DNA from: Nitrospira sp.
GTDB taxonomy: Bacteria > Nitrospirota > Nitrospiria > Nitrospirales > Nitrospiraceae
Direction of reading: 5' to 3'
DNA: 64,000 bases
Assembly (NCBI GenBank): GCA_022226935.1
Contig: CP092081.1
Coordinates: 1,102,734 to 1,166,733 of the forward strand
Both the position numbers and the translations under genes were made by a program. The notes under the pieces were generated by a model. That model made no database searches and had not been told where the DNA came from. It saw only the letters and a list, made by a program, of their open reading frames with translations. Positions 10,154-27,184 of this stretch are shown piece by piece; within the stretch, counting starts at the first letter, position 1, and each line of letters starts with the position of its first letter.

Positions 10154-10350
10154 ACTACAGCGGTTGCCGGGGACTGGGAATTTTTTGCCCGGTTGCAAAC
10201 CCCGCGTCAGTTCTACAACTAAGAAATCCTACGGTTTCACATCCTCCGTCTCCCATCCTCAGTGGCATACATCTTGATTAGTATCCTGATGCCGTGCCTG
10301 GTCTGTTGACAGACACAGGCTTCCTTTTTGGCGCGAGAGGGACCACGACC

Positions 10351-11544
10351 ATGACGATTCACGCACACGGTGCCAAGCTGAACCCGCGTTGGTGTCTGGC
10401 TCAGGATACGATCGACCGGCAGGATATTGATCATTTGATCGACTGGCTGCGGACCTATCCGCGACTCACCAAGGGCGCGGTAACCGTCGATTTCGAGCAA
10501 CGCTGGTCGCAGTGGCTGGGACGCCCCTATTCGGTGCATTGCAATTCAGGATCATCGGCCAATCTCCTCATGTATTACGCCTTGCTGCGATCGGGGAAGT
10601 TGCACAATACGAATGTCATCGTCCCGAGCGTCGGGTGGGTCACGTCCATCGCTCCGGCCATTCAATTCGGATTCACTCCGTTCATGTGCGAGGCAGACCC
10701 CGATACATTCGGCCTCGATCTCAATCATCTTGAAGACTTGCTGAAGCGTCACCAGGCCCAGACGGTCCTGCTGGTTCAAGTCCTTGGTGTGCCGCATCGC
10801 ATGCGCGAACTGCAGACGTTGAAAGATCGGTATGGGTTTTATCTCCTTGAAGATGCCTGCGCCGCCATCGGGGCCGAGTACGAGGGCAAAAAAGTCGGCA
10901 CATTCGGCGACATGGCGAGCTTTTCCTTCTACTTCGGTCATCAGATGTCCACGATCGAAGGGGGCATGGTCTCGTCCAGCGACAAGGAGCTCACAAATCT
11001 TCTTCTCATGTTGCGCAGCCACGGATGGAGCAAAGATGTGGACCAGGCGCGGCATCAGCAACTAGTGGATCAGTATCAGGTGGACGACTTCCACTCGCCC
11101 TTCGTGTTCTACGAACCGGGATTCAATCTGCGCTCGACTGATCTCAACGCATTCATCGGCCTCGAACAATTGCGCAAGCTGGATTGGATGACCGGTCGAC
11201 GGCAAGCGAATCACGACCGCTATCTCGAGCAACTGGGAAAACGGTTTTACACACAACGGCCGCCGCAGGGCAGCAAGGTCGCCAGCATTTCCTTTGGCTT
11301 ACTGGCTGAGAGCCCCGAACAACGGAAACGCATCGTCCGGGCGTTGGTGGCCGAGGGAGTGGAGACACGTATCTTCTCAGCCGGCAATCTGGGCCTGCAT
11401 CCGTTCTGGATGAATCGCTACGGGAAAGCCAGTTTTCCTGTGGCAGACCGGGTTCATCATTGCGGATTTTTTCTGCCCAACCACGCCTCGATGACCGACC
11501 AGGACGTCCTTCATATTTCCCGCATCGTCCTGGAGGCCGCATGA
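10351..11544 (+). CDS. DegT/DnrJ/EryC1/StrS-family PLP enzyme with His at the lysine position (dehydrase-like)
   Basis: 397 residues from the ATG at 10351, which follows GAGAGGGA; an in-frame GTG at 10294 lacks support. The fold I core is clear: NSGSSANLLMYYAL, VLGVPHRMREL, LLEDACAAIGAEYEG, SFYFGHQMSTIEGG. In sugar aminotransferases the residue before the EGG loop is the PLP-binding lysine; here it is His197 (codon CAT). Lys-to-His is the hallmark of the 3-dehydrases ColD (GDP-4-keto-6-deoxymannose) and E1/DdhC (CDP-4-keto-6-deoxyglucose), so C-3 deoxygenation is more likely than transamination. First gene of the carbohydrate island. The 197-base gap upstream shows no convincing promoter. Confidence 0.88.
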   Translation: MTIHAHGAKLNPRWCLAQDTIDRQDIDHLIDWLRTYPRLTKGAVTVDFEQRWSQWLGRPYSVHCNSGSSANLLMYYALLRSGKLHNTNVIVPSVGWVTSIAPAIQFGFTPFMCEADPDTFGLDLNHLEDLLKRHQAQTVLLVQVLGVPHRMRELQTLKDRYGFYLLEDACAAIGAEYEGKKVGTFGDMASFSFYFGHQMSTIEGGMVSSSDKELTNLLLMLRSHGWSKDVDQARHQQLVDQYQVDDFHSPFVFYEPGFNLRSTDLNAFIGLEQLRKLDWMTGRRQANHDRYLEQLGKRFYTQRPPQGSKVASISFGLLAESPEQRKRIVRALVAEGVETRIFSAGNLGLHPFWMNRYGKASFPVADRVHHCGFFLPNHASMTDQDVLHISRIVLEAA

Positions 11545-11596
11545 GCAGGACAGTGGGGCAGCACGAGTGGCACAGCCAGAAGGAGCACGTGTAACC

Positions 11597-12544
11597 ATGA
11601 CGACAGGCTCGACACATGTCCTTATCACCGGAGGGGCTGGATACCTGGGTTCAGTGCTGACCAGACGATTGCTCGATCGGGGATATGCGGTCACCGTCCT
11701 CGACAATTTTATGTACCGTCAAAACAGCCTGATGGATTGCTGTGCCGAGGAGAAGTTTCAGGTCGTGCGCGGCGACTGCCGGGATGAACGGCTGCTGACA
11801 GACTTGCTGCGCAAGGCCGATATCATCATCCCACTGGCCGCGCTGGTCGGAGCGCCCTTGTGCGACAGAGACCGGGTCGGAGCGTATACGATCAATTTCG
11901 AGGCCGTACAGCTGCTCTGCAAACTGTCTTCTCCTCGCCAGCAGATCATTTTCCCCGTGACCAACAGCGGGTATGGCATCGGCCAGCCTGGCGTACCTTG
12001 CACAGAAGATTCGCCGCTTCGTCCCATCAGTCTCTATGGCGAAACCAAGGTCAAGGCCGAGCGAGTTGTCTTGGACCGAGGCAATGCGATTACGCTACGC
12101 CTGGCGACGGTGTTCGGTGTGTCACCGCGGATGCGCATGGATTTGCTGGTCAACGATTTCGTCTGGCGGGCGGTGCATGATCGCGCGGTCGTGGTGTTCG
12201 AAGGCCATTGCAAGCGCAATTACATCCATATCCGGGACGTCGTCCGCACGTTTCTCCACGCGATCGACAATTTCGACGACATGAAAAACCGGCCGTACAA
12301 CGTCGGATTGGATGACGCCAATCTCTCGAAACTCGAACTCTGCCGTGAAATCCAGCGCGTCCTCCCGCAGTTTGTGTCCTTCGAAGCGCCGATCGGGGAG
12401 GATCCCGATAAACGCGATTACATCGTCTCCAATCAACGTCTGCTCGAGACCGGGTTCAAGCCCGAATGGTCGCTGGAGAGGGGGATTCGCGAGTTGATCA
12501 AATGCTACACAGTCGTCAAAGCCGGCCAATATGCCAATGTCTGA
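11597..12544 (+). CDS. NAD-dependent epimerase/dehydratase (extended SDR)
   Basis: 315 residues from the ATG at 11597, preceded by GAAGGAG (11579-11585); the GTG at 11567 is less likely. Rossmann motif VLITGGAGYLGSVL, catalytic SLYGETK (YxxxK), and RNYIHIRDVVRTFLHAI as in nucleotide-sugar epimerases and dehydratases. The substrate cannot be told from sequence; with the adjacent dehydrase-like enzyme it probably acts on a nucleotide-linked 4-keto or hydroxy sugar. Gap of 52 bases from the preceding gene. Confidence 0.88.
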   Translation: MTTGSTHVLITGGAGYLGSVLTRRLLDRGYAVTVLDNFMYRQNSLMDCCAEEKFQVVRGDCRDERLLTDLLRKADIIIPLAALVGAPLCDRDRVGAYTINFEAVQLLCKLSSPRQQIIFPVTNSGYGIGQPGVPCTEDSPLRPISLYGETKVKAERVVLDRGNAITLRLATVFGVSPRMRMDLLVNDFVWRAVHDRAVVVFEGHCKRNYIHIRDVVRTFLHAIDNFDDMKNRPYNVGLDDANLSKLELCREIQRVLPQFVSFEAPIGEDPDKRDYIVSNQRLLETGFKPEWSLERGIRELIKCYTVVKAGQYANV

Positions 12545-12574: not shown

Positions 12575-13645
12575 ATGATCATCAGCCGAACGCCGTTCCG
12601 TATCTCGTTTTTCGGGGGCGGTACCGATTATCCCGTCTGGTTCCGGGAACATGGCGGAGCAGTGCTGGCCACGACCATTGATAAATATTGCTACATCAGC
12701 TGCCGGCAATTGCCGCCGTTCTTCGAGCATCGCACCAGGATCGCCTATTCGCGCATCGAACTGGTGAACAACAATCAAGAGATCGAACATCCCGCCGTCC
12801 GCGGCGTGCTGAAATACCTCAATATCGACGATGGGCTGGAAATTCATCACGACGGCGACTTGCCGGCGCGAACCGGATTGGGATCGAGTTCTTCCTTCAC
12901 TGTCGGACTGCTCCATACGCTCTACGCCTTGCAGCACATCATGCCCAGCAAAGCGCAGTTGGCTCAGGCCGCCATCCATGTCGAACAGGATGTGCTCGGG
13001 GAGGCCGTGGGATGCCAGGACCAAGTGCTCGCGGCACATGGCGGCCTGTGCAAAGCGACATTTTTCCAGAACAGTGACATCGGGCACGCGCCGATCATCA
13101 TGCGACCGGAGCGGCTCGCGGCGTTTCAAAACCACCTCCAACTCTACTTCACCGGATTTTCGCGCATCGCATCGGAAGTCGCCCGCGAGCAGATCGACCG
13201 CACCAAACAACGTCAGGGTGAACTATCCACGATGTTGCAGATGGTCGATGAAGGTGTGTCGATTCTTACCGGAGAGCGCGATCTGGCGGACTTCGGCAGC
13301 ATGCTGCATGAGGCCTGGATGCTCAAGCGGCGATTGACTTCGCGCATCACCACGCCGGCCATCGATGCAATCTACGCGGCAGCCAGGGAAGCGGGGGCTC
13401 TCGGGGGAAAGCTTTTGGGTGCCGGCGGGGGCGGATTCATGTTGCTCTTCGCCAGACCGGAAGATCATGAGCGAATTCGTCTGGCACTTCCGGGCTTACT
13501 CCAAGTCCCGTTTAAGTTTGAGGGACTGGGCACCCAAATCGTGTTTTACCAGGAAGATCAGCTGATGCTGGATGACGTGTGGGCGCAAAGCTCCGCGCAG
13601 ACCGCGGCCCGGCTGAAGGCGGCCCTCATTGGAAAGGCGGCTTGA
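12575..13645 (+). CDS. GHMP-family sugar kinase, HddA-like (D-glycero-D-manno-heptose 7-phosphate kinase type)
   Basis: 356 residues. The N-terminus ISRTPFRISFFGGGTDYPVW is distinctive of HddA/heptokinase-like GHMP enzymes; RTGLGSSSSFTVGLLHTLYA is the GHMP phosphate-binding loop and LLGAGGGGFMLLF the C-terminal motif 3. Such kinases phosphorylate C-1 of a sugar phosphate before nucleotidyl transfer. It overlaps the nucleotidyltransferase by TGATG, so the two are translationally coupled. The heptose substrate is inferred from family resemblance; gmhA- and gmhB-type genes are not in the window. Confidence 0.87.
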   Translation: MIISRTPFRISFFGGGTDYPVWFREHGGAVLATTIDKYCYISCRQLPPFFEHRTRIAYSRIELVNNNQEIEHPAVRGVLKYLNIDDGLEIHHDGDLPARTGLGSSSSFTVGLLHTLYALQHIMPSKAQLAQAAIHVEQDVLGEAVGCQDQVLAAHGGLCKATFFQNSDIGHAPIIMRPERLAAFQNHLQLYFTGFSRIASEVAREQIDRTKQRQGELSTMLQMVDEGVSILTGERDLADFGSMLHEAWMLKRRLTSRITTPAIDAIYAAAREAGALGGKLLGAGGGGFMLLFARPEDHERIRLALPGLLQVPFKFEGLGTQIVFYQEDQLMLDDVWAQSSAQTAARLKAALIGKAA

Positions 13646-14409
13646 TGGCTCAGTTTGCCGATTGCGATGTGATCATTCTCTGTGGGGGATTCGGGACGCG
13701 ACTGCAATCCGTTGTATCCGACCGTCCGAAACCGATGGCGGAGATTCACGGCCGCCCGTTTGTGTCGTTGCTCGTCGAACATTTCCTGCGCCATGGCGCG
13801 CGCCGCTTCATTTTCAGCACGGGACATTTCGGAGAAATGATCGAGGACTGGTTCCTACGCCATCGCGGGGCTTACGAAACGCTGTTCGTGCGCGATCCTG
13901 TTCCCTTAGGCACCGGCGGGGCACTGGCGCATGCCATGCCGTTGGTGCGGAGCAACCCGTTTCTCGTACTGAACGGCGATTCGTTCTGCGAGATCGATCC
14001 CGAGAGGCTATTGCGATTCCATACTCTCAAACGGGCGAGCGCGACGATGGCCGTCACCCACGACGAGAGCCGGGAAGACACCGGTGCGGTCGCGTTGGGA
14101 GAGGGCGACCGCCTGTTGTCGATGGTGGAAAAACCACGCAAGCGGACATCGAACTATCACAATGCCGGGGTTTACCTATTCGATCGCGCCGTCACCACAC
14201 TGTTTCCGGACATGCCGGTCTGGTCGCTGGAGCGGGACCTGCTGCCGCGTCTCGTCACGCATCCGTGTTACGGATTCGTCACCGCTAGTCCGTTGCACGA
14301 CATCGGCACGCCGGAACGTCTGGCGCATTTCCGTGAAATCTGGAAGGACACATCGGCCTATTTCCCAACCTCGCTGCTCCATCAGACACAAGGATCGATG
14401 TCCCGATGA
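13645..14409 (+). CDS. Sugar-1-phosphate nucleotidyltransferase, HddC-like
   Basis: 254 residues from the ATG at 13645, which overlaps the kinase stop codon. CGGFGTRL is the nucleotide-binding signature, followed by DRPKPMAEIHGRPFVSLLV; VLNGDSF carries a metal-binding Asp and VKxxxEKP is seen as SMVEKPRK. Nearest in type to D-glycero-alpha-D-manno-heptose 1-phosphate guanylyltransferase (HddC). The product would be a nucleotide-activated sugar for the downstream transferases. Base and substrate are not certain. Confidence 0.88.
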   Translation: MAQFADCDVIILCGGFGTRLQSVVSDRPKPMAEIHGRPFVSLLVEHFLRHGARRFIFSTGHFGEMIEDWFLRHRGAYETLFVRDPVPLGTGGALAHAMPLVRSNPFLVLNGDSFCEIDPERLLRFHTLKRASATMAVTHDESREDTGAVALGEGDRLLSMVEKPRKRTSNYHNAGVYLFDRAVTTLFPDMPVWSLERDLLPRLVTHPCYGFVTASPLHDIGTPERLAHFREIWKDTSAYFPTSLLHQTQGSMSR

Positions 14410-14426
14410 CTCAGGAGAGAGTGCCG

Positions 14427-15626
14427 ATGCCGCAGACTCCGATCAGACCGGCCTTCTCCTCGCGAGGCGAGCGGTTGATAGGACAGGAAATGTTTCGCGT
14501 ATTGGATCGCGCGCAAGCGCTGGAACGCCAGGGCCACAGGATTTATCACCTTGAACTCGGCAACCCGCGCATGGCTCCTCCAGCCAAGATTCTTGAGGCC
14601 ACGATTAAGGAACTGCACGTCAAGCACGTTGGGTATGCGCCGATGGCCGGCCTGCAGGAATTACGCGCGGCAGTCGCCCAACGCTATGCCTCGTTGAGCG
14701 GGAAGCCGATAGCCGCTTCTCAGGTCGTCATCAGCCCGGCGAATATGCTCATTCACCAGTTTCTGGATATCACCTGCAACCCTGGCGACCGGGTGGTGCT
14801 GTTCACGCCGGCGTTTCCCTCCTATTGGGCGGCAGCCGCACATCTCCAGCTTGACGTCGTGCCCGTTATGCTCCCGGCCCGTGATGGCTTTCGGCTGTCA
14901 CGGCAGGCCATCGATGCCGCTCTGGCAGCAACGCCCAAGGCGATCATTGTCAACAGTGCCAATAATCCGACCGGCGCCGTCTATGAGCCGGCGATCCTTC
15001 ACGAGCTGGTAGCACGGTGCGGGCAGGCAGGAATCTGGCTCCTCAGCGATGAAACCTATGCCGATCTGACCTTCGATGGTTCACATGTCAGCCTGGCGGC
15101 CCCGCAGGTCGGACATGTCGTCGCCATGTCGTCGTTCTCCAAGGTGTTGTCCATTCCGGGATTTCGCACGGGGTACGCCCTGGCGCATGAGACGGTTGTC
15201 GCTAAGTTCGCCCTCTCCAATTCCACGCTCTACTCGTGCCTGCCCGGGTTTACCCAGAGCGGCTGTCTCGCAGGGTTGTCTGTGCTTGACGCCTATGCTG
15301 CAGAGGTCCGCGCTCGCAACCGACGTCTCATCGCAACCTGCCATGACCGCATCATTCACGCCGGGCTGTTGCAGTGTCACCTTCCGGACGCCGGTTTCTA
15401 CCTCTTTGTCGATATCACCCGAACGGGGCTCGACGATATGACATTCTGCCGACGTCTCCTCGAGGAAGAACATACGGCTGCGACGCCGGGGCGGTCCTTC
15501 GGCGACGCGTACGCGTCCTATATCCGACTCGCGGTGTGTGGACAGGAAGAAGATGTGCTGGAGGGCGTGTCGCGCACCATCGCGTTTACGCAGAAACTGG
15601 GAGGGTGCCATGTCCAAGCCGCTTGA
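14427..15626 (+). CDS. PLP-dependent aminotransferase, class I/II (fold type I)
   Basis: 399 residues from the ATG at 14427, chosen because AGGAGAG (14413-14419) is spaced correctly; the ATG at 14406 overlaps the previous stop and is the alternative. Conserved class I/II features: HVGYAPMAGLQELRAAVA, NSANNPTGAVY, LLSDETYADLTF and the PLP-lysine motif MSSFSKVLSIPGFRTGYAL. Family members act on amino acids and keto acids rather than nucleotide sugars, so it may supply an amino-acid-like building block. Overlaps the radical SAM gene by 17 bases. Confidence 0.86.
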   Translation: MPQTPIRPAFSSRGERLIGQEMFRVLDRAQALERQGHRIYHLELGNPRMAPPAKILEATIKELHVKHVGYAPMAGLQELRAAVAQRYASLSGKPIAASQVVISPANMLIHQFLDITCNPGDRVVLFTPAFPSYWAAAAHLQLDVVPVMLPARDGFRLSRQAIDAALAATPKAIIVNSANNPTGAVYEPAILHELVARCGQAGIWLLSDETYADLTFDGSHVSLAAPQVGHVVAMSSFSKVLSIPGFRTGYALAHETVVAKFALSNSTLYSCLPGFTQSGCLAGLSVLDAYAAEVRARNRRLIATCHDRIIHAGLLQCHLPDAGFYLFVDITRTGLDDMTFCRRLLEEEHTAATPGRSFGDAYASYIRLAVCGQEEDVLEGVSRTIAFTQKLGGCHVQAA

Positions 15627-17118
15627 CGTCTTGCTGGTGACGCCACCCAGCCGGGTCCAGGTCTATCAGGAACTCAGCCGGGACTTCGCCGCCATCGAAC
15701 CGCCGGTATGGTCGGGCCTGATCGCCACCTATCTTCGGCAACATAGTTGTTCCGTGGCCATTCTCGATGCGGAGGCTCAGGGGCTCACGCATCAGCAGAC
15801 CGCTGAGCAGATCGCGGCCATCGCTCCCAGGCTGGCGGTCTTTGTCATTTACGGGCAACAACCGTCTGCCTCCACGCAGTGCATGCCCGCCGGCCGGAAG
15901 GTCTGCGAGATCCTCAATACGCTCGCGGATATTCCTACACTCGTGATGGGCACGCATCCATCGGCGTTGCCCCAACGTACCTTGTTGGAAGAGCCCTATA
16001 CGTATGTCTGTCAGGGGGAAGGGCCGGCGACTATTTTCGGTTTGGTTGTCGCCTTGCGCGCGCCGCAGCATTCGCTCCGCGACGTGCCGGGCTTGTGGCA
16101 TCTGCAGGAGGGGAATGCGGTCGGCAATGCGCCTGCGCCGCTGTTCACGAATCTCGACCATGACTTACCGGGACAAGCCTGGGATCTACTCGATATGAGC
16201 CGCTATCGCGCCCACAATTGGCACTGTTTCGGCAACCCGGATTCCAGAACCCCCTACGCCTCACTTCAGACCAGCCTGGGATGCCCATTTACCTGTTCCT
16301 TCTGCTGCATCAACGCACCGTTCGCCACGCCGATGCTGCGTGTCTGGAGTCCCGACAATGTCATCGGACAGATCGACCGCCTCGTGCGTGAGCACGGCGT
16401 CTCGAATATCAAGATTCCGGATGAGATGTTCGTCTTGAACCGTCGCCACGTCATCGGCATTTGCGACCGGATCATCGAACGGGGCTATCGCCTGAATATC
16501 TGGGCCTATGCGCGAGTCGATACGGTGCAGGATGAAGTGCTGGAGAAGCTGGCGCGCGCCGGGTTTACGTGGCTGGGGCTCGGCATTGAATCCGGCAGCC
16601 AGCATGTCCGGGACGGGGTCGAGAAGGGCCGCTTCGGTGAACGGGAGATCGTCGCCACGGTGGACCGCATCCACTCCCACGGCATCCATGTCGCGGCCAA
16701 TTACATTTTCGGCCTCCCGGACGACACCCTCGAAAGCATGCGCGCCACGTTGGATTTAGCGCTGACGCTCAATACCGAATGGGCGAATTTTTACTGTGCC
16801 ATGGCCTATCCAGGCTCGGCGCTCTACGGTCTTGCCAAACAACACCAGTGGACGTTGCCGGATGATCAGGGCGGACCGGGCTGGATCGGGTATTCCCAAC
16901 ATGCGTACGAATGCCTGCCGCTGCCGACCGACAGTCTCACCGCCACGCAAGTGTTGGACTTTCGGGATTGTGCCTTTCAGGAATACTTCACCCATCCACA
17001 GTACCTCGCTATGTTGCAACGAACGTTTGGGCCGCGCGTCGTCGCTCACGTAACGGAGATGTGCCGGCATCAGGTGCGCCGTCGCCATCATGATCAGGCG
17101 TCCAATCAGGCGGCATAG
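15610..17118 (+). CDS. B12-binding-domain radical SAM protein (first copy)
   Basis: 502 residues from the ATG at 15610 (GGGAGGG upstream); the longer frame to 15538 runs into the previous gene. N-terminal cobalamin-binding-like Rossmann domain (LLVTPPSRVQVYQ, then TLVMGTHPSALPQ) and a radical SAM barrel with C225-x3-C229-x2-C232 (GCPFTCSFCC), followed by GLGIESGSQHVRDGVEKG. Such enzymes use a 4Fe-4S cluster, SAM and often methylcobalamin for methylation or rearrangement at unreactive carbons. A second enzyme of the same architecture lies at 19001. Substrate unknown; a sugar or sugar-linked group is likely from context. Confidence 0.88.
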   Translation: MSKPLDVLLVTPPSRVQVYQELSRDFAAIEPPVWSGLIATYLRQHSCSVAILDAEAQGLTHQQTAEQIAAIAPRLAVFVIYGQQPSASTQCMPAGRKVCEILNTLADIPTLVMGTHPSALPQRTLLEEPYTYVCQGEGPATIFGLVVALRAPQHSLRDVPGLWHLQEGNAVGNAPAPLFTNLDHDLPGQAWDLLDMSRYRAHNWHCFGNPDSRTPYASLQTSLGCPFTCSFCCINAPFATPMLRVWSPDNVIGQIDRLVREHGVSNIKIPDEMFVLNRRHVIGICDRIIERGYRLNIWAYARVDTVQDEVLEKLARAGFTWLGLGIESGSQHVRDGVEKGRFGEREIVATVDRIHSHGIHVAANYIFGLPDDTLESMRATLDLALTLNTEWANFYCAMAYPGSALYGLAKQHQWTLPDDQGGPGWIGYSQHAYECLPLPTDSLTATQVLDFRDCAFQEYFTHPQYLAMLQRTFGPRVVAHVTEMCRHQVRRRHHDQASNQAA

Positions 17119-17143: not shown

Positions 17144-18982
17144 ATGATCAAGGTGGCAGACTACATCATCAATACGTTAGCCGAACGGGGCATCGACAAA
17201 ATGTTCGTTGTCTACGGCGCAGCCAACGGCGATTTGATCGATGCGTTTACCCGCACCGCCGCGACCCAGTATGTCGCCGTCATGCATGAACAGGCCGGCG
17301 GGTTTGCCGCTGAAGCCTATGCCAAGGTGAAAGGCATTCCCGGAGTTGCCATTGCGACCAGCGGGCCGGGCGGGATGAATCTCCTCACCTCGATGGGCAA
17401 TTGCTTCTACGATTCCATTCCCTGCGTCTTTCTTACCGGACAGATCAACTCGCGGTTCCTCCGCCCTGATCCGTCGATCCGACAAATCGGGTTTCAAGAA
17501 ACCGACATTGTGGCGATGGCCGCGCCGGTGACCAAATACGCGAAGATGATCCTCAATCCTGAAGACGTCCGGTTTGAGTTGGAAAAGGCCCTGTGGATGT
17601 GCCAGGAGGGTCGACCTGGACCGGTGTTGCTCGACATTCCCCTCAACGTGCAAAAAGCCATGGTCGATGCAAAACAATTGACGGGCTTCGAGCCGCCCGC
17701 GGCCATGAGTTTCGACCTCACGGTTGTCGACCAGCAGATCGCCCGTTTCATCAACGACCTTCAACAGGCGGAACGGCCGGTCATCCTCGTGGGGGGAGGC
17801 GTGCGCCTGGCCGATGCACAGGACGATGTCCGGGCGTTGGGGCGCCGCTTGAACGTCCCGTGTTTTCCGACCTGGAACGCGTTGGATGTGATCAGTTCGG
17901 ATTACGAGAACTATGGCGGACGGGTGGGGACCTATGGTGGTGCGGGTCGCAACTTCGGCATTCAGAACAGTGATCTGCTCCTGTCTATCGGCAGTCGCAT
18001 CTCCGGACGGATCACCGGCGGGAACGTTCAGAGTTTCGCCCGACAGGCCAAGAAGTATCTGGTCGAAATCGATCCGGCCATGGTGCAGCGGAAATTTCAG
18101 CAGGTGCCGTTTGACGTCAACATCCTCTGCGACGCGAAAGCATTTACGCAGCGCTTGTTGATCGCGCTGGATCGGCGCAGCAAACCCTTGCCGGATTTCT
18201 CAGCCTGGACGGGCCGCGTCATGGAATGGAAACGGCGATACGATCCGGTGCGACCGGAATTTTTCGCGCAACGCGAGCGCGTCCATCCGTACGCCTTCAT
18301 GCGGCGTTTGTCGGAGAAAATGGGCGCGACCGATATCCTGGTCGGCGACTGCGGCGGCAATATCGTCGTCAGCAACCACGCCTTCGAAACCAAGTACGGT
18401 CAGCGCAATCTGACGAACAACGGCAATTCGCCCATGGGGTTCTCCTTCGCGGGAGCGATGGGCGCCTGGTTTGCCGATCCCACGAGATCAGTCGTCTGCA
18501 CGATCGGCGACGGCGGCTTCAATATGAATCCGCAGGAATTACAGACCTTCGTGAACTATGGCGTCAAAGTCAAAACGTTCATTCTGAACAACCATATCTA
18601 CGGCATTACCAAGGCCTACCAGGAAACCAATTTCCAGGGTCGCGCTGAAGCCTGCGGGCCGAAGGGATACAACCCGCCGGATTTCATCAAGATCGTCCAG
18701 GCCTACGGCATCAAGACCGTCGCCATCGGAAACCATGCCGAGATGGACGCCAAGATCGATGAGGTGCTGCAGTTCGACGGACCGGTCGTCTGCGATGTGG
18801 ACATGCACGAGTTCCACACCTACGAGCCGAGGATCTTCGGCTGGAAGACCCCCATCGAGGATATGTATCCCTATCTGCCTCGCGAAGAATTCCGCGCCAA
18901 TATGGTCATCGATCCGGCGGAGGGGTGGATGAATCCCGAGTATCCCGACGTGGTGCGGCGAACGGATCAGTCACAGCCGTAG
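17144..18982 (+). CDS. Thiamine-diphosphate enzyme of the acetolactate synthase family
   Basis: 612 residues from the ATG at 17144 (AAAGGAG upstream); ATGs at 17090 and 17120 are alternatives. Pyr domain with catalytic Glu49 in AVMHEQAGGFAAEAYAK, central domain about 200-340, PP domain with the ThDP motif IGDGGFNMN...NN (about residues 450-482). No regulatory subunit gene (ilvH) is nearby, and the enzyme sits among sugar genes, so branched-chain amino acid synthesis is unlikely. A family precedent is YerE, which adds a two-carbon unit to a CDP-3,6-dideoxy-4-ketosugar in yersiniose synthesis. Gap of 18 bases to the second radical SAM gene. Confidence 0.88.
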   Translation: MIKVADYIINTLAERGIDKMFVVYGAANGDLIDAFTRTAATQYVAVMHEQAGGFAAEAYAKVKGIPGVAIATSGPGGMNLLTSMGNCFYDSIPCVFLTGQINSRFLRPDPSIRQIGFQETDIVAMAAPVTKYAKMILNPEDVRFELEKALWMCQEGRPGPVLLDIPLNVQKAMVDAKQLTGFEPPAAMSFDLTVVDQQIARFINDLQQAERPVILVGGGVRLADAQDDVRALGRRLNVPCFPTWNALDVISSDYENYGGRVGTYGGAGRNFGIQNSDLLLSIGSRISGRITGGNVQSFARQAKKYLVEIDPAMVQRKFQQVPFDVNILCDAKAFTQRLLIALDRRSKPLPDFSAWTGRVMEWKRRYDPVRPEFFAQRERVHPYAFMRRLSEKMGATDILVGDCGGNIVVSNHAFETKYGQRNLTNNGNSPMGFSFAGAMGAWFADPTRSVVCTIGDGGFNMNPQELQTFVNYGVKVKTFILNNHIYGITKAYQETNFQGRAEACGPKGYNPPDFIKIVQAYGIKTVAIGNHAEMDAKIDEVLQFDGPVVCDVDMHEFHTYEPRIFGWKTPIEDMYPYLPREEFRANMVIDPAEGWMNPEYPDVVRRTDQSQP

Positions 18983-19000: not shown

Positions 19001-20626
19001 ATGAACGTCTTGTTGCTGTATCCCACATGGACCGGTGCGTACGGACTGTTCGGCCATTTCGCCCGCCGGAACTCGACCTGGCCTCCGCTGAATCTAGCGC
19101 TCCTGGCCGCCATTGCTGAGCGCCACGGCCACAATGTCACGATCCTCGACGGTGAGTCCGAGCAGATTCCGTTGGAGGAGATGGTGCACCGGGCGGTGGC
19201 AATGAAGCCTGACCTCATCGGCTTTACGGCTACCAGCCCGTTTTTCCATCTCAGCAAGACGGTCGCGGAAGGCATCAAACGTCTGGCTCCGGACATTCCC
19301 ATCGCCGTGGGCGGCCCTCATATCACCATCATGAAGGAGCAGTCGCTGTTAGGCTGTTTCGACTATGCCTTCATCGGCGAGGCCGAGGAATCGTGGCCGC
19401 AGTTCCTGAATGCCTACGAACAACGCAAGGACCTGTCGACGGTGCGTGGGATCATTTATCGACGGGACGGGGAGCTCGTCTCGACCGGTCAACCAGCTGA
19501 CATTACGGATCTCGACGCCTTGCCGATTCCTGCGCGGCATCGACTGCCGATGTCCCGGTACAAGCTCGGGACGCTGCGCGGGCGACTGCCGTTCACCTCG
19601 ATTCAAACCATGCGTGGCTGCCCTTGGAAATGTATTTTCTGTGCCTCGGAAGCGTTGAAGACCACGGAGATGCGTGTGCGCTCTCCGCGATCCGTTGTCA
19701 ATGAGATGAAGCAAGTCGTGGAGATCTTCGGCACGCGACACTTTTATATCGTCGATGATGTGATGACGCTCTGGAAAGACCACATTCTGGAGATTTGTGA
19801 CCTGATCGATCAGGAAGGGTTGGAGATTACCTTCGAAGGCAGCACCAGAGCCAATCTCGTGGAAGAAGACGTAATCGCACGGCTGGTCAAGAGCGGCCTC
19901 ATCCGTCTTTCGTTTGGACTCGAAACCGTCGATCCCGAGATACGGCGGACGATGAAAAAGCAGGTCCCCCTGGAGCACTACGTGAAAGCAAACGGGATCT
20001 GCAACCAGTACGGAGTCGAAGCCTTGAACTCCGTGATGATCGGATTGCCAGGGGAAACACGAGAAACGGTGCGAGCGACCCTAAACTTTTTGCGTCAGGC
20101 GAGAGAAGTCAAACAAGCGAACTTTGCCATCGCCGTGCCCTATCCAGGGACCGAGTTTCACAAGCTGGCGGTGAACGGGGAGAAGGGCGTGAAGCTGATG
20201 ACGCAGGATTTCTCCGAATATCGCCGCTATGGCTCGGCCGTCACCACGGTGGGGGAACTGACGCCTCACGACCTGATCGACCTTCAGAATGAGGGATTTG
20301 TCAGTATCTACTCTGCGCCCTGGCGCTGGATTCCCATGCTGCAGAAACACGGAATGATCGGCGGCTCACTCATGCTGGTCCGCGTGGCACGCCTCCTGTC
20401 GAAAAAGCTGTTTGCCGGCCACGGACAAGCCTCACAGGAGCAACTCATCAGCCTGGGAGACGGGGCGTTCGGCCGCATACAGGAGTCAGCCATGCGACCA
20501 GAGACAGTTGGAGTCGCTTCAGCCGGATCGACCAGCACGGCTCCGTTGTTGACCATCGCCTCTGCAACACGAACGGGAGCTGCGCCGGCCGGACATTTCG
20601 GTCATCCCACAAACCCCAATGGTTAA
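19001..20626 (+). CDS. B12-binding-domain radical SAM protein (second copy)
   Basis: 541 residues. N-terminal cobalamin-binding-like domain (LLAAIAERHGHNVTILDGES, AVGGPHITIMKE), radical SAM core with C207-x3-C211-x2-C214 (RGCPWKCIFC), SFGLETVDPEIRRTMKKQ and a methyltransferase-type tail. The last ~60 residues are Ala/Thr-rich and low in complexity. GAGGTGATGT precedes the ATG. Same type as the enzyme at 15610 but clearly diverged, so the two probably act at different positions or substrates. Ends 21 bases before the giant transferase. Confidence 0.88.
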   Translation: MNVLLLYPTWTGAYGLFGHFARRNSTWPPLNLALLAAIAERHGHNVTILDGESEQIPLEEMVHRAVAMKPDLIGFTATSPFFHLSKTVAEGIKRLAPDIPIAVGGPHITIMKEQSLLGCFDYAFIGEAEESWPQFLNAYEQRKDLSTVRGIIYRRDGELVSTGQPADITDLDALPIPARHRLPMSRYKLGTLRGRLPFTSIQTMRGCPWKCIFCASEALKTTEMRVRSPRSVVNEMKQVVEIFGTRHFYIVDDVMTLWKDHILEICDLIDQEGLEITFEGSTRANLVEEDVIARLVKSGLIRLSFGLETVDPEIRRTMKKQVPLEHYVKANGICNQYGVEALNSVMIGLPGETRETVRATLNFLRQAREVKQANFAIAVPYPGTEFHKLAVNGEKGVKLMTQDFSEYRRYGSAVTTVGELTPHDLIDLQNEGFVSIYSAPWRWIPMLQKHGMIGGSLMLVRVARLLSKKLFAGHGQASQEQLISLGDGAFGRIQESAMRPETVGVASAGSTSTAPLLTIASATRTGAAPAGHFGHPTNPNG

Positions 20627-20647: not shown

Positions 20648-23600
20648 ATGACACCACGTCCACCCATGAAAGTGCTTCTCTTGCAGCTGGAGTTTCCCAC
20701 CTGGAAACAAGCTCGCGCTTGGACGTATCCGGCCTGTTTCGGAGTCGCTGAAGGGCTACGAGCGAGTGGTGTGGAATGTGTCACATTGCCTCTCATCGCC
20801 GATCCGCCTTATTCCAGCACCGCCTGGCTGGCGCACATGAAGCGGATGATCAAGGGACAACGGTTCGACCAGGTGTGGGTGTGGCTGGTTCATGCGCCTC
20901 TCGATGACGCGATTCTGAATTGGTTGAGCAAGCTGGCCCCGATCCGTGTCGGCATCATCATGGAATCCTTGCAGTACAGCGAAGACGATTATGCATGGGC
21001 GCCCCACCTTCGGGCGCGTCAGGGATTTGTTGAACAACAGGTCCGGGCGTTGACCCACGTACTCGTTCCGGATGAATGCGACGTCGAGCGAACCGCTGCA
21101 CGCACCGGCGTTCCCGCTCTCTGGTGGCCACCGATGGTGCCAGAACGTTTTATCAGTATGCCGCCGAACCCTGCGGTTCACCAAGCCGGCGTTTTCCACG
21201 GCGTGCCGTACGGCCCGCGTGAGCAATGGATCCATCATCCCGCGCTGAAATCGTGTCTGACCTTTGCCCGTTCATCGGCTCCCACGTTGTTTCAACAGCT
21301 GTTCGATCGGTTGCAGCAATCCGCCATCCAACGGTTGGCCACACCTGCGGGAATGTCCGCCGGTGAGCTCACTCACTATACGACGATGTGGCAAGAGGTG
21401 CGCGAAGGCGAATTCCGTGAATGGATGACTCAACTGCCGCAATGGGCGGCGATCGTCAATCTGCCGAGTCTGGCCAAGTTCTATGGTGGTCGTGTCTTTG
21501 AAGGGATTGCTGCCGGCCGCCCCGTCGTGTCGTATGCCGTGCCGGGACATCCGATGAACAACAACTTGTTTGTCGAAGGAGAAGAGATTCTCTATTTTTC
21601 CCCAAGCCGGCCTGACTCACTGGCGGAGGTGTTGGACCGCCTGTTAGCCGATGCCACATTCGCGACGCGACTGGCCAGCAACGCTCAACAGAAATTGCGG
21701 GCTTATCACACCAGCGAGCGACGGGTTGCGGAAACGCTTGAGTGGATTCAGTCGGGAACCAAGCCTGTGTATGGTGAGCGAGGGACCGATGCCGCCTATG
21801 CACTGGTTTCTTCTCAGGCCGGGCATGCCCTTCCAGTTATCGAACCGCGCCGCACAGAAGTCGCTGGCCGCGCAGAAACGACCATCTTTATCCTCACCGT
21901 TGACGATCCTGCGTATCCCGCCTGTAAAGCCGCCGTCGATGCGCAGCAAGGTGGGCCGTTTCACGTCGAGATCATCCGCAATGTCGCACCTTTCAGCGCG
22001 GCGGCCCAACGCATGATCGCAGATTGTCGAACCGAGTTCTTTATCCAGGTCGACGAGGACATGATCCTCAACTCCGACGCGGCGACTAAGATGGCGGACC
22101 TGATGCGCCGTGCCCCGGCCGAGGTCGGCATGATCTGTTTTCATCTCTACGATGACGATCGCGCCTGCCGGATCCAAGGCATCAAGATCTATCGCACGGC
22201 GGCCATGAAGCCCTTCGCCTTCCAGAATGTGAAGGCGAGCGAGATGGACTTGCTCGATCAGATGGGCCAACGGGGTGTCCGGTGGGTGCTGCATCCTGAT
22301 GTCCTCGGTCGGCACGGAACTCTGTATACACCGGAAACCATCTATCGCCGCTATAAAACGATGTATGAAAAAGACATCCGGCAGTGGAATACCCTGACCT
22401 CGGATATCCGTCGGAAAGCCGATCAGTTTCGAGCGACGGGAGACCCGCTGGCGCTCTTTGCATTGCTCGGGGCCGCGCATGGCATCATCGAAGGTCCTCG
22501 ATCGGCCGACCGTGAGAAAGATGCGCGAGCGTACGGATTGAACGAACTGGACATCTTCGCCCGGCTCTTCCGGCAAACGCCGCCCGCCAGCCAACCCTAT
22601 GATCCAAGGCGAAGTGGAGCGCCCGTAGCCAATAGCCCGTTGGCTCCCGAGGAGGTGCGTTGGGCAGGAGAGACGTCGTTGACAAAGGCGCCCGAGCAGC
22701 AGGCATTGCAGAGCGCTATCCCGGCACCGCAGGCTCAGCGTCATCATTCCGAGCGAATCCTCATTGTCACGCCATATTTTTGGCCTTCCATTGGCGGTGT
22801 CGAAAAGGTGGCAGAAAGTTTGGCCATCGGCTTGCAGTCTCGAGGACATGCCGTCGAAGTGGCGACCTACGCTCTCACCGAACGTACGGCCAAATCGCAC
22901 CGTGGCATTCCCATCATCGATCTCACATTCCCGGCCGACTTCGAAACGACCAGTCCCTATTCCATGCTGGAAGTGAAACGGTTGATCGAGTCGGGCTGCT
23001 ACGGATGCTGTATTCTCCTGGGCGCGCCGCTCCATCTCATGTTTTATGCCCCTCTCTCGATTCCCAAAGAGCGGCCTGTTCGATTCATTCTCCAACCGAC
23101 TATCAACAAGGACATTGCTGAATTGTTGGAGGGGAGCGAGCAGGGGCGCACCATGTTGTCTCAACTGGGACAGCGCGTGAACGCAGTCGTCACGTTCGGC
23201 GGCAAGGGATACGATGAACAGTTCTTTCGAGAACGCCGGATTCCGACCTGTGTCATTCCGAACGGTACACCGGCGCTCGCGCCCAAGAATGATTTCAGGC
23301 AGCGCTACGGGATTGCCCGCGAAACCTTCATGGTGATCCATCTCGCCAATCTCTACAAGGTCAAAAATCATCCGGGATTGCTCGAGGCCCTGGAGAACCT
23401 TCCGGAAGGCGTCCAGCTCGTGTTGATCGGGAATGACACACACGAAACCGAGTATGTCGAGGCGGTGAAGGCCCATCTTGCGGCACGACCGGATGTCAAA
23501 CTACTTGCTGGGCTGGACTCCACCGAAGTCGCTTCGGCCCTGGCGGCGGCCGATCTCGTGGTGTTGGCCTCGCATGCCGAAGTTTCGCCTCTCTGCCTAT

Positions 23601-26600
23601 TGGAAGCGATGAGTGTCGGTCGGCCCTGGCTTGCCACACCAGAGTGCGGGACTGCGGTGGAACAGGGGGGAGGACTGGTGCTTCCGCTGTCGCAGTTCGC
23701 AGCCGCAGTACGCCTCCTCAAGAGCCATCCGGAATTTTGCACAGAGCTGGGACGACTGGGCCGTGAACATTGGGCGCAGTCACATGACTGGGCGGCCGTC
23801 TTGACGGCGTGGGAGGATTTGATCGAAGGCCGATCCGTCTCCCATTCATTTGCCACATCGGTCTCCATTGTCCAACGGCGAGAGGCTCTCCGCGAACAAT
23901 TCCGTCGTCTTTTGGCACAACAAGGCACTGTCGACGCGTCTCCTGCGTCACAGCTGCGGGTCGAAACGAAAGGGGTCGTGATGGACGGGTTGAACCAAGG
24001 ACCGCGGGGCTCGGCAAACCCAGGCGCCTTATCGAGTTCCGCGCCGACGCCTCAAGAGCAGAAACAGCAGGATCAATTTTACATCGACATGTTCGTCAAG
24101 AGCCGGGCCTGGTCGTCCCCAGGACCCAATCATGACGAGGCGGCTCGGTGGAGCAAAATTGCGGCCTTTCTGGAATATCTGCTCCGTCGCGTGCGTCAGA
24201 CGGACCCTCAGCGACAACTCCGCATGTTGGACGTCGGTTGCGGGCGGGGCTGGCTGACCAATTTGGCAACGGCTTATGGCACGTGCGAAGGTATCGAACC
24301 GGTAGCCGGCGTCATCGAACATGCGCGACGGTTATTTCCGCACCTGCGATTCGAAGCGGGTACGGCTCAGAGCGTGCTCAGTCGCCCAGATTTTGCGCCT
24401 TACGATGTCATCCTCTGTTCGGAAGTGATCGAACATATTCCCCACGGCCGGAAAGAAGGGTTTGTCGCAGAATTGGCCTCACTTCTGAAGCCGGATGGCT
24501 ATGTCATCCTGACGACGCCGCGCGGAGAGATGTGGGAACAGTGGAAATCGATCGCACCGCCTTGTCAGCCGGTTGAAGATTGGGTCACGGAAGCGCAACT
24601 GCGCGACATTTTCACGAGCCAAGGTTTCTGCGAACTCGGCTTGGAACGGGTGCACTGCGAAATTCCTTCGCTGCGCTATATCCCTGCACCCACTCCGGCA
24701 GACTTCACTAAACTGAAGCTGGTGCCCATCTATCAAATCTGGGCCTGCCAGCGTCGGGGTGCCTCTCCCGTTCCCTCGTTCACACGTCCGCCCATGGTCT
24801 CGGTCATTGTGCCCACCTACAATCGGCCTGATCGCCTCCAGGTCGCACTCTCCAGCATCCTGGCCCAGACCTATCAGGACTTTGAGATCATCGTTGTCAA
24901 CGACGGCACACTCGATGTGAGTGAGGTAATCGCTCCGCTCAACCGCGACGGTCGTATCACCATGGTCAGGCACGACCACAACCGTGGACTGGCCGCGGCT
25001 CGCAACACAGGCATCCGGGCGGCCAAAGGCACGTACATCGCGTATCTCGACGACGATGACACCTACCTCCCGGACCATCTGCACACCCTGGTCACGGTTC
25101 TACAGGGCGGCGAGCATAAGGTCGCCTATACGGACGCCTGGCGTATCCATGAAGTGCGGCAGGGCGATCAATACGTAGTGACCGGACGGGATATCCCGTA
25201 TTCGCGTGACTTCAACTGCATCGATCTCTTGTTGTGCAACTATTTCCCGGTCCTCTGCGTCATGCATGAGAAAGCCTGCCTCGAACAGGTCGGCGTCTTC
25301 GACGAATCGCTCTTCGCGCATGAAGATTGGGATCTCTGGATCCGGATGGCGACGATCTATCCGTTTCTCCACATCAAGCACACGACGGCAGCATTCACCT
25401 GGCGGCGCGATGGCTCATCGATGACAAGCAGCACGAGCGACACCTACCGACGCACGACCGAAATCATCTATAGAAAATACCGGCCCTATGCAGAGCGCAT
25501 CGCCGGGGTTTTGGAGGCGCAGCAAAAGAAACTGGAAGGTATGCGATCCGACGCCCAGGCCAAGACGTTCGATTGCTCCATTATCATTCCGGTGTGGAAC
25601 AACCTGGCGCTCACCACGCAATGTTTGACCGCCCTGGCGGAAGTCACGTACGGCGTCTCGTACGAAGTCATCGTGGTGGACAACCACTCGACGGACGACA
25701 CCCCCGCGTTTCTCGCTGGACTCGGCGGCGATGTGACCGTCATCACTAATCAGGAGAATCTCGGGTTTGCCAAGGCCTGCAACCAGGGCGCTCAGGCGGC
25801 CAAGGGCGAATACCTCGTGTTCCTGAACAACGACACCATTCCACAAGCCGGGTGGCTCAGCGCGCTTGTCGACGAAGTGAAAACCCATTCCGAGGTGGCG
25901 GTGGTAGGAAGCAAACTGTTGTACGAAGACGGCACGATTCAACATGCGGGAGTGGCGTTCTCCCGTGAGTTCCTGATGCCATACCACATGTATCCGGGAG
26001 TGCCGGCCAATGCGCCCATGGTCACGCGCCGCCGCGAGTTGCAATGCGTCACTGCCGCCTGCATGCTCATCCGCCGGCAGGCATTCGCGCAGGTCGGGGG
26101 TTTCGATGAAGGCTACAAGAACGGATTCGAAGACGTCGATCTCTGTCTCAAGATCGGCGAAAAGAACTGGAAGATCGTCTACCAGCCGCAAAGCACCGTC
26201 ATTCATCTAGAAAGCCGAACGCCGGGACGGAAGGCGCACGAGGAGCAGAACACCACCCGCTTCCGGGAACGCTGGGGCCATTGCTGGTGGGTGACGGACG
26301 AGGATCGGCTCCATTTTGACGACGGTTACTCTGTGCATACGCGCCTCAACGATCAACTCCTCGGGTACACGCTGCACCTGATTACCGACCCTGCGGTTCG
26401 GGCAGAACGGGCACTGGTCGCAGATGTGCAGCGCGCGACGGCCCTCAAGAATCAGGAACAGGTGGTCACGTTGCTACAACGAGTCGACCAATGGCCTGCC
26501 GATGCATGGATTCTACGTTGGGGAGCTTCACTCAGCGAGGGCATCGGTCACCATGAATTGGCCCTGCCATTCTGGAAACGCGTGTTGCTGCTGAAAAATG

Positions 26601-27184
26601 ATCCGCAGGCCCGCGTGGCCTTGGCGAAGCACGCTTTGGAGACAGGCGCCATCAAAGAAGCGGACAGTCATCTGACCTCATTGCTCCAGACTGAACCCGC
26701 GCATGGGGAGGGATGGCTGCTGCGCGGCATTCTCGCCATGCAGCTCAATGCCTACCGCGATGCCGAACAAGCATTCGAACAGGCGAAACAGGCAGGCGCG
26801 AATCCTAGGAAGGCCATCCTCGGTCTGGTCATGGCGGCCATGGGAGACAATCGGGCTGAGGCTGCCTGGTCACACGTGACAGCTCTCTGCGCCGATCATC
26901 CGGATGATGAAGAATGCATGCACTGGATGTTGAAATGCGGAACGTTGCTTCAACGCTGGGATGCTCTTGCGTCACGGCTCTCCTCGTTTGTCGCCCGCAA
27001 TCCGGGCAATATTGCTATGCGATTTGCCCTCGCGGGAGTACTGTTAAGAGCAGGACGCCGGGCGGATGCGCAGCGGGAATATGAGTGGTTACGCGCCATG
27101 GTGCCGACCTTCGAAGGCATGGACGAGTTGGCAAAACAACTGACCGGAGCCGAACGACCATTGGTACCGAACCATGCCGCATGA
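20648..27184 (+). CDS. Giant multi-domain glycosyltransferase with embedded methyltransferase and TPR tail
   Basis: 2178 residues from the ATG at 20648 (GGAAAGG upstream; ATG 20666 possible). Approximate order: CgeB/GT-B-like domain (118-375; GGRVFEGIAAGRPVVSYAVP); GT-A-like segment (411-618; QVDEDMIL); GT4 (701-1071; VTPYFWPSIGGVEKVAESL); SAM methyltransferase (1191-1305; MLDVGCGRGWL); GT2 (1383-1611; SVIVPTYNRPDRL, YLDDDD); second GT2 (1641-1861; SIIIPVWNN, FLNNDT, EDVDLCLKIG); TPR-like tail (1921-2178). No signal peptide or membrane segment, so a cytoplasmic assembly enzyme. Linkers near 620-700 and 1071-1180 are Pro/Gln-rich. The frame is open throughout. Acceptor unknown; flagellin or a lipid-linked glycan is plausible. 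Confidence 0.9.
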   Translation: MTPRPPMKVLLLQLEFPTWKQARAWTYPACFGVAEGLRASGVECVTLPLIADPPYSSTAWLAHMKRMIKGQRFDQVWVWLVHAPLDDAILNWLSKLAPIRVGIIMESLQYSEDDYAWAPHLRARQGFVEQQVRALTHVLVPDECDVERTAARTGVPALWWPPMVPERFISMPPNPAVHQAGVFHGVPYGPREQWIHHPALKSCLTFARSSAPTLFQQLFDRLQQSAIQRLATPAGMSAGELTHYTTMWQEVREGEFREWMTQLPQWAAIVNLPSLAKFYGGRVFEGIAAGRPVVSYAVPGHPMNNNLFVEGEEILYFSPSRPDSLAEVLDRLLADATFATRLASNAQQKLRAYHTSERRVAETLEWIQSGTKPVYGERGTDAAYALVSSQAGHALPVIEPRRTEVAGRAETTIFILTVDDPAYPACKAAVDAQQGGPFHVEIIRNVAPFSAAAQRMIADCRTEFFIQVDEDMILNSDAATKMADLMRRAPAEVGMICFHLYDDDRACRIQGIKIYRTAAMKPFAFQNVKASEMDLLDQMGQRGVRWVLHPDVLGRHGTLYTPETIYRRYKTMYEKDIRQWNTLTSDIRRKADQFRATGDPLALFALLGAAHGIIEGPRSADREKDARAYGLNELDIFARLFRQTPPASQPYDPRRSGAPVANSPLAPEEVRWAGETSLTKAPEQQALQSAIPAPQAQRHHSERILIVTPYFWPSIGGVEKVAESLAIGLQSRGHAVEVATYALTERTAKSHRGIPIIDLTFPADFETTSPYSMLEVKRLIESGCYGCCILLGAPLHLMFYAPLSIPKERPVRFILQPTINKDIAELLEGSEQGRTMLSQLGQRVNAVVTFGGKGYDEQFFRERRIPTCVIPNGTPALAPKNDFRQRYGIARETFMVIHLANLYKVKNHPGLLEALENLPEGVQLVLIGNDTHETEYVEAVKAHLAARPDVKLLAGLDSTEVASALAAADLVVLASHAEVSPLCLLEAMSVGRPWLATPECGTAVEQGGGLVLPLSQFAAAVRLLKSHPEFCTELGRLGREHWAQSHDWAAVLTAWEDLIEGRSVSHSFATSVSIVQRREALREQFRRLLAQQGTVDASPASQLRVETKGVVMDGLNQGPRGSANPGALSSSAPTPQEQKQQDQFYIDMFVKSRAWSSPGPNHDEAARWSKIAAFLEYLLRRVRQTDPQRQLRMLDVGCGRGWLTNLATAYGTCEGIEPVAGVIEHARRLFPHLRFEAGTAQSVLSRPDFAPYDVILCSEVIEHIPHGRKEGFVAELASLLKPDGYVILTTPRGEMWEQWKSIAPPCQPVEDWVTEAQLRDIFTSQGFCELGLERVHCEIPSLRYIPAPTPADFTKLKLVPIYQIWACQRRGASPVPSFTRPPMVSVIVPTYNRPDRLQVALSSILAQTYQDFEIIVVNDGTLDVSEVIAPLNRDGRITMVRHDHNRGLAAARNTGIRAAKGTYIAYLDDDDTYLPDHLHTLVTVLQGGEHKVAYTDAWRIHEVRQGDQYVVTGRDIPYSRDFNCIDLLLCNYFPVLCVMHEKACLEQVGVFDESLFAHEDWDLWIRMATIYPFLHIKHTTAAFTWRRDGSSMTSSTSDTYRRTTEIIYRKYRPYAERIAGVLEAQQKKLEGMRSDAQAKTFDCSIIIPVWNNLALTTQCLTALAEVTYGVSYEVIVVDNHSTDDTPAFLAGLGGDVTVITNQENLGFAKACNQGAQAAKGEYLVFLNNDTIPQAGWLSALVDEVKTHSEVAVVGSKLLYEDGTIQHAGVAFSREFLMPYHMYPGVPANAPMVTRRRELQCVTAACMLIRRQAFAQVGGFDEGYKNGFEDVDLCLKIGEKNWKIVYQPQSTVIHLESRTPGRKAHEEQNTTRFRERWGHCWWVTDEDRLHFDDGYSVHTRLNDQLLGYTLHLITDPAVRAERALVADVQRATALKNQEQVVTLLQRVDQWPADAWILRWGASLSEGIGHHELALPFWKRVLLLKNDPQARVALAKHALETGAIKEADSHLTSLLQTEPAHGEGWLLRGILAMQLNAYRDAEQAFEQAKQAGANPRKAILGLVMAAMGDNRAEAAWSHVTALCADHPDDEECMHWMLKCGTLLQRWDALASRLSSFVARNPGNIAMRFALAGVLLRAGRRADAQREYEWLRAMVPTFEGMDELAKQLTGAERPLVPNHAA

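Follow-up and report, generated by a model that had tools for sequence, protein, structure and literature searches.

What does a full-length ThDP enzyme resembling acetolactate synthase do in a sugar gene cluster that lies among flagellar genes? The original prediction, made from sequence alone, was that it probably makes a branched sugar, as does the pairing of an E1-type dehydrase with YerE that yields the two-carbon-branched sugar yersiniose. The DNA we analysed, here called the window, is a stretch of 64,000 nucleotides (positions 1,102,734-1,166,733) from a Nitrospira genome comprising one contig of 4.23 Mb. Its near matches are Nitrospira genomes, Candidatus Nitrospira defluvii among them; N. 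defluvii has the locus too (L017).

Twelve tightly packed genes with intergenic gaps of −17 to +49 nt form an operon spanning 10345-31854 (Table 1), and this operon is flanked by flagellar genes, with a flagellin-family gene upstream (G000:C1:1106081) and a flagellin gene downstream. The gene order is identical in about 20 Nitrospira records and the arrangement is therefore not due to chance. Two records titled uncultured Nitrosospira (L008 and L024) also carry the Nitrospira-type locus, with a ThDP enzyme of 86-98% protein identity, and for this reason their titles look misassigned. The large protein fusing glycosyltransferase domains, a methyltransferase and TPR differs strongly in length and similarity among relatives.

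Table 1. Genes of the operon and the adjacent flagellin gene, in window coordinates.
Feature	Coordinates	Strand	Evidence
ColD-type sugar 3-dehydrase (DegT fold, His replaces PLP Lys)	10345..11544	+	motif FGHQMSTIEGG; best PDB match ColD 2gms
SDR, Cj1427-like GDP-heptose C4-dehydrogenase (putative)	11594..12544	+	best PDB matches 6vo6/6vo8
GHMP kinase, HddA-like heptose-7-phosphate 1-kinase (putative)	12575..13645	+	best PDB matches 3k85, 4usm, 4n3o; NF049969
Sugar-1-phosphate nucleotidyltransferase, guanylyl type (man1P_GTase/HddC-like)	13645..14409	+	NF052502, NF049965
Class I aminotransferase, possible 2-oxo acid donor supplier or branch modifier	14406..15626	+	PF00155
B12-binding radical SAM protein 1	15610..17118	+	PF04055 + PF02310; CxxxCxxC present
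YerE-like ThDP carboligase, 612 aa, proposed C4-branching enzyme	17144..18982	+	Pfam TPP_enzyme_N/M/C; best PDB match 8rph JanthE; tree and AU test
B12-binding radical SAM protein 2; absent at several loci	19001..20626	+	PF04055 + PF02310; CxxxCxxC present
Multi-domain glycosyltransferase, 2176 aa (GT1-type, methyltransferase, two GT2, TPR)	20654..27184	+	Pfam
Family 9 (heptosyltransferase family) glycosyltransferase	27174..28367	+	PF01075
Glycosyltransferase-like protein (Glyco_trans_1_2 + DUF3880)	28364..30181	+	Pfam
Second family 9 (heptosyltransferase family) glycosyltransferase	30178..31854	+	PF01075
Flagellin (fliC), presumed acceptor protein	32677..33504	+	PF00669 match at G000:C1:1135422

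The ThDP gene is intact: its frame runs from an ATG at 17144, preceded by a good ribosome site (AAAGGAG), to a stop at 18982, and the protein contains all three ThDP-decarboxylase domains (Pfam, E 1e-27 to 1e-37). The catalytic glutamate (E49 in HEQ) and the cofactor motif (GDG...NN at 455-457 and 482-483) are conserved. No gene for an ACT or other regulatory subunit was found among the neighbouring genes using Pfam and NCBIfam. The prediction of a full-length ThDP enzyme without a regulatory subunit, located between two radical SAM genes in a sugar cluster that also encodes a 3-dehydrase-like enzyme, thus held in each part, the last being the DegT-fold protein in which histidine replaces the PLP lysine. 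The ThDP protein retains the AHAS-type GFQE segment and R289, the equivalent of an arginine that contacts the second keto acid in AHAS, so its residues leave acetolactate synthesis possible. The position of the tryptophan singled out for its role in AHAS enzymes is occupied by Tyr492. A structure model of the protein (pLDDT 89.5) did not separate the two families, since in a fold search JanthE (Z 47.5 over 596 residues) and a plant AHAS (Z 48.2 over 558) were tied.

Three lines of evidence indicate that the protein is not the biosynthetic AHAS, IlvB, with which it shares a fold, the cofactor motif and about 30% identity. First, among the six ThDP proteins that a PF02776 search finds in the genome, IlvB is encoded in a separate ilvB-ilvN-ilvC operon, where the regulatory subunit adjoins ilvB. 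Second, the genome's ilvB product scores 835 bits against TIGR00118 (cut-off 538.35), whereas the window protein falls below the cut-off at 374 bits. Third, IlvB forms its own clade in maximum-likelihood trees (support 98/95 in one tree and 96/86 in the other), and forcing the window clade and IlvB together costs 66 log units and is rejected (p-AU 0.0002). The original prediction would have been refuted had this been the only AHAS in the genome and had it grouped firmly with IlvB; neither is the case, and the second ilvB with its regulatory gene, which the prediction proposed looking for, is present. As a separate observation, a frame elsewhere in the genome (G000:C1 ~1341024-1344356, L005) appears by eye to join a phosphoenolpyruvate-mutase-like N-terminal part to a nucleotidyltransferase-like part, and it adjoins a ThDP gene that may encode a phosphonopyruvate decarboxylase, a possible hint of phosphonate synthesis.

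The same trees place the protein with YerE-like carboligases. The window clade, made up of Nitrospira sequences together with those of loci L027, L028 and L029, is one group (100/100) that falls with YerE-like proteins, and the window clade and all YerE-like rows are split from IlvB and Gcl at 100/99. Within the YerE-like set the stem of the window clade is long (1.24) and internal branches are supported at just 77-88, so its exact sister remains unsure. Our tree contains no YerE sequence from Yersinia; loci linked to RfbF, RfbG and RfbH were used as stand-ins. The best PDB sequence match (8rph, 320 bits) is JanthE, a YerE-like enzyme that couples 2-oxo acids to ketones (PMC12188165; PMC12247030). 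The fold search also returned 5ahk, titled 'acetohydroxy acid synthase Pf5 from Pseudomonas protegens', which is probably the enzyme later named PpYerE. Sequence and tree thus support a YerE-like ThDP carboligase; addition of a 2-oxo acid to a ketone and FAD binding are inferred. The predicted YerE-type branched-sugar enzyme is supported to this extent, without activity data. Like YerE, JanthE and ErwE (PMC12247030, PMC12188165), the protein belongs to the ThDP-decarboxylase superfamily, lacks a regulatory subunit and is accompanied in its sugar cluster by a His-type 3-dehydrase. It differs from them in forming its own deep clade, with about 31-38% identity to other YerE-like proteins, and from JanthE in having GDG where JanthE has a CDG motif. 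One member of the clade, in a record titled Parcubacteria (L028), is a 68%-identical ThDP gene accompanied by a dehydrase, an SDR and a kinase, reflecting either horizontal transfer or a binning error. In a broader group of YerE-like genes, including those at L088 and L117, a gene nearby (two loci scanned) encodes a NeuB-like synthase some 505 aa long, which could possibly make long 2-oxo acid donors.

If the protein branches a sugar, the neighbouring genes point to which one. RfbH-type dehydrases (motif SFYPAHHITMGEGG) often adjoin the genes of its tree relatives, and the sister locus L108 combines RfbF (474 bits), RfbG (518) and RfbH (758) with a ThDP gene. In contrast, a scan of the operon with Pfam and NCBIfam found no CDP-glucose genes RfbF and RfbG beside the window ThDP gene, which speaks against the CDP-sugar (yersiniose) pathway there; its neighbours are instead of the GDP-heptose type and its setting is a flagellar locus. 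The histidine substitution in the dehydrase is present in the window, in L027, L028 and L029, and in 24/24 orthologues checked. This enzyme matches ColD (2gms, 166 bits) better than the CDP-type E1 (3bb8, 125 bits), and ColD acts on GDP-4-keto-6-deoxymannose. The adjacent SDR has 6vo6 as its top match (387 bits across 309 aa, E 5e-115), with the next at only 85 bits; 6vo6 is named 'putative sugar-nucleotide epimerase/dehydratase' in the PDB, and we take it and 6vo8 to be Cj1427. The D-E pair is the motif of 4,6-dehydratases, and since the SDR has TNSGYG instead, we rejected its assignment as a 4,6-dehydratase.

The GHMP kinase finds heptose kinases as its best PDB matches. Its NF049969 score (115 bits, cut-off 600) and those of the nucleotidyltransferase (NF052502, 121 bits; NF049965, 107 bits) are below curated cut-offs, and GmhA-like (195 bits) and GmhB-like (146 bits) genes elsewhere in the genome fall just below theirs, so the HddA/HddC-type and GmhA/GmhB-like assignments are weaker. 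Cj1427 oxidizes GDP-D-glycero-manno-heptose to the 4-ketone and, together with the HS:5 C3-dehydratase, yields GDP-D-glycero-3-deoxy-4-keto-heptose in vitro (PMC10680097). Because the ThDP gene has neighbours encoding a Cj1427-like SDR, a ColD-type dehydrase and a GHMP kinase resembling heptose kinases, GDP-3-deoxy-4-keto-heptose is the expected acceptor. From these neighbours we infer a GDP-heptose, rather than a CDP-hexose, as the probable nucleotide sugar; oxidation of GDP-heptose by the SDR is likewise an inference. The C4-oxidation and C3-dehydration would be those of the Campylobacter jejuni capsular heptose pathway, but the pertinent passages of PMC10680097 contain no ThDP branching step and epimerases and C4-reductases come next in that pathway. 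The original prediction is supported here with corrections: the His-type 3-dehydrase is nearer to ColD (GDP-sugar) than to E1/RfbH (CDP-sugar), the sugar is probably not of the yersiniose type, and its branch could differ from two carbons in length.

The best evidence that the protein performs a branching step comes from sister loci in which a different ThDP enzyme occupies its place. Of 44 genomes searched, 31 have the SDR, and several close relatives lack the window ThDP gene. We examined the locus in nine genomes having the SDR without a window-type ThDP gene. Seven of these keep the dehydrase (cut by the stretch end in one), the SDR (74-96%) and the kinase, and have another ThDP enzyme substituted: a split transketolase (Transketolase_N plus Transket_pyr/Transketolase_C) at L142, L143, L144 and L146, and a split E1-type pair (E1 alpha-like plus beta-like) at L145, L147 and L148. 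The other two, L149 and L150, have more distant SDRs (57%) and different gene surroundings. No locus has two types together, the seven swapped loci lacking the window type and the window-type loci lacking the others. Parsimony on the SDR tree requires six changes among the three types, of which well-supported branches force only two, so repeated exchange is likely and its exact number is unsettled.

Ketone branching has been reported or proposed for three ThDP classes: YerE-kind decarboxylases, transketolases and E1-type alpha-keto acid dehydrogenases (PMC12247030). This one-of-three occupancy beside a kept set of genes argues that the window gene carries out ThDP branching on the intermediate that the constant genes produce. 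Keto-sugar branching by ThDP enzymes is reported or proposed for the split transketolases of miharamycin and amipurimycin and for the E1-type enzymes (alphaKADH2) of aldgamycin and kibdelomycin (PMC12247030); these are known from antibiotic producers, but here enzymes of the same classes substitute for the window gene in sister genomes. The 13 predicted ketone-accepting transketolases are all from Streptomycetes and are untested (PMC12247030). Some other genes vary with the ThDP type. Radical SAM protein 1 is 76-95% identical among YerE-type Nitrospira loci and 50-55% identical to its counterparts in the six swapped loci having a match, and from these cross-type identities we read that it was swapped along with the carboligase. 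The aminotransferase is found at YerE-type loci and at two of the three E1-type loci (the contig start truncates the third, L148) and at none of the four transketolase-type loci. An extra SDR is found at L145 and L147 and not at transketolase-type loci.

Taken together, we consider it likely (probability roughly 0.68) that the window enzyme attaches an acyl branch at C4 of GDP-3-deoxy-4-keto-heptose. The sequences themselves show the protein families, the histidine substitution, the order of the genes, the place in the tree and the swap with other ThDP classes. There are no biochemical data, and the acceptor, the donor and its chain length, the order of steps and the flagellin target are inferred. 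In the proposed pathway, the GHMP kinase and nucleotidyltransferase would turn heptose-7-phosphate into GDP-D-glycero-manno-heptose, with isomerase and phosphatase supplied from elsewhere in the genome. The SDR would then oxidize C4 to give GDP-4-keto-heptose, and the ColD-like dehydrase would take off the C3 hydroxyl. The ThDP enzyme would decarboxylate a 2-oxo acid (pyruvate, or one from the adjacent aminotransferase) and the acyl carbanion would join the C4 ketone, giving a tertiary alcohol bearing a carbon branch. The B12 radical SAM enzymes may alter the branch, and the downstream glycosyltransferases would attach the sugar to flagellin. That the aminotransferase supplies the 2-oxo acid or transaminates the branch is no more than possible, since the correlation behind it covers a small number of loci. 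Among the operon genes we identified no clear YerF-like branch reductase.

Of the alternatives, the one that survives best, though we consider it unlikely, is a carboligase acting not on a heptose but on another keto-sugar, for example the GDP-4-keto-6-deoxy-mannose made by GDP-mannose 4,6-dehydratase (Gmd), or its 3-deoxy form. In its favor are the dehydrase's best match to ColD and two Gmd genes over cut-off in the genome, one of them (G000:C1:1170798-1171760) about 4 kb beyond the window end, where it starts another polysaccharide region. Against it, neither gene is inside the operon, which itself encodes a Cj1427-like C4-oxidase and a heptose-kinase-like protein, both kept under every ThDP class. 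Also unlikely is a second, unregulated acetolactate or acyloin synthase that gives the glycan only a small molecule, such as a branched 2-oxo acid later transaminated. The 374-bit overall similarity to IlvB, the retained GFQE and R289, and the adjoining aminotransferase favor this view; the tree and AU test, Tyr492 in place of the AHAS tryptophan, and the swap with split transketolase and E1-type enzymes, neither of which is an acetolactate synthase, speak against it. Finally, the three ThDP types might make different products with only the 3-deoxy-4-keto intermediate in common, which would leave the exchange little informative on the window enzyme and would fit the type-dependent aminotransferase and extra SDR, but this is very unlikely, since one position is strictly held by one of the three and published work ties all of them to ketone branching (PMC12247030); even with differing donors on one acceptor, the type of step would not change.

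In the preferred reading, C4 branching of a GDP-heptose, the predicted link to a flagellin glycan is supported by gene position only, and flagellin as target is inferred. Flagellin is present in nearly all genomes of the family with or without the operon, which makes a presence/absence comparison of the two uninformative. No flagellin match was found in the L028 and L029 genomes, which have related modules and are both small or incomplete, so the sugar there probably goes elsewhere. The flagellar islands of two other relatives, L116 (G667) and L115 (G633), carry a different YerE-like ThDP gene, 33-34% identical, near flagellin; the L116 island also encodes a transaminase, an AMP-ligase, a FabZ-like protein and a NeuB-like synthase, and represents a further sugar type at a similar site.

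In the open-licence literature searched we found no paper describing a C-branched sugar in a flagellar glycan or one built on GDP-heptose. C-branched sugars made by YerE-like enzymes are known from lipopolysaccharides and those made by the other two ThDP classes from antibiotics (PMC12247030). If our reading is true, the locus supplies naturally matched enzymes of three ThDP classes that share an acceptor, allows the split-transketolase branching reaction, so far untested, to be tested directly, and opens a way to make chiral tertiary alcohols on sugars. It would also reveal how the flagellar surface is varied by nitrite oxidizers. A bolder reading, which could as readily prove wrong as right, is that the Nitrospira flagellar island contains a modular step in which GDP-3-deoxy-4-keto-heptose is C-branched by any of the three ThDP classes, swapped as cassettes between close relatives. 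The flagellum's surface sugar would then become more diverse through different carbon branches.
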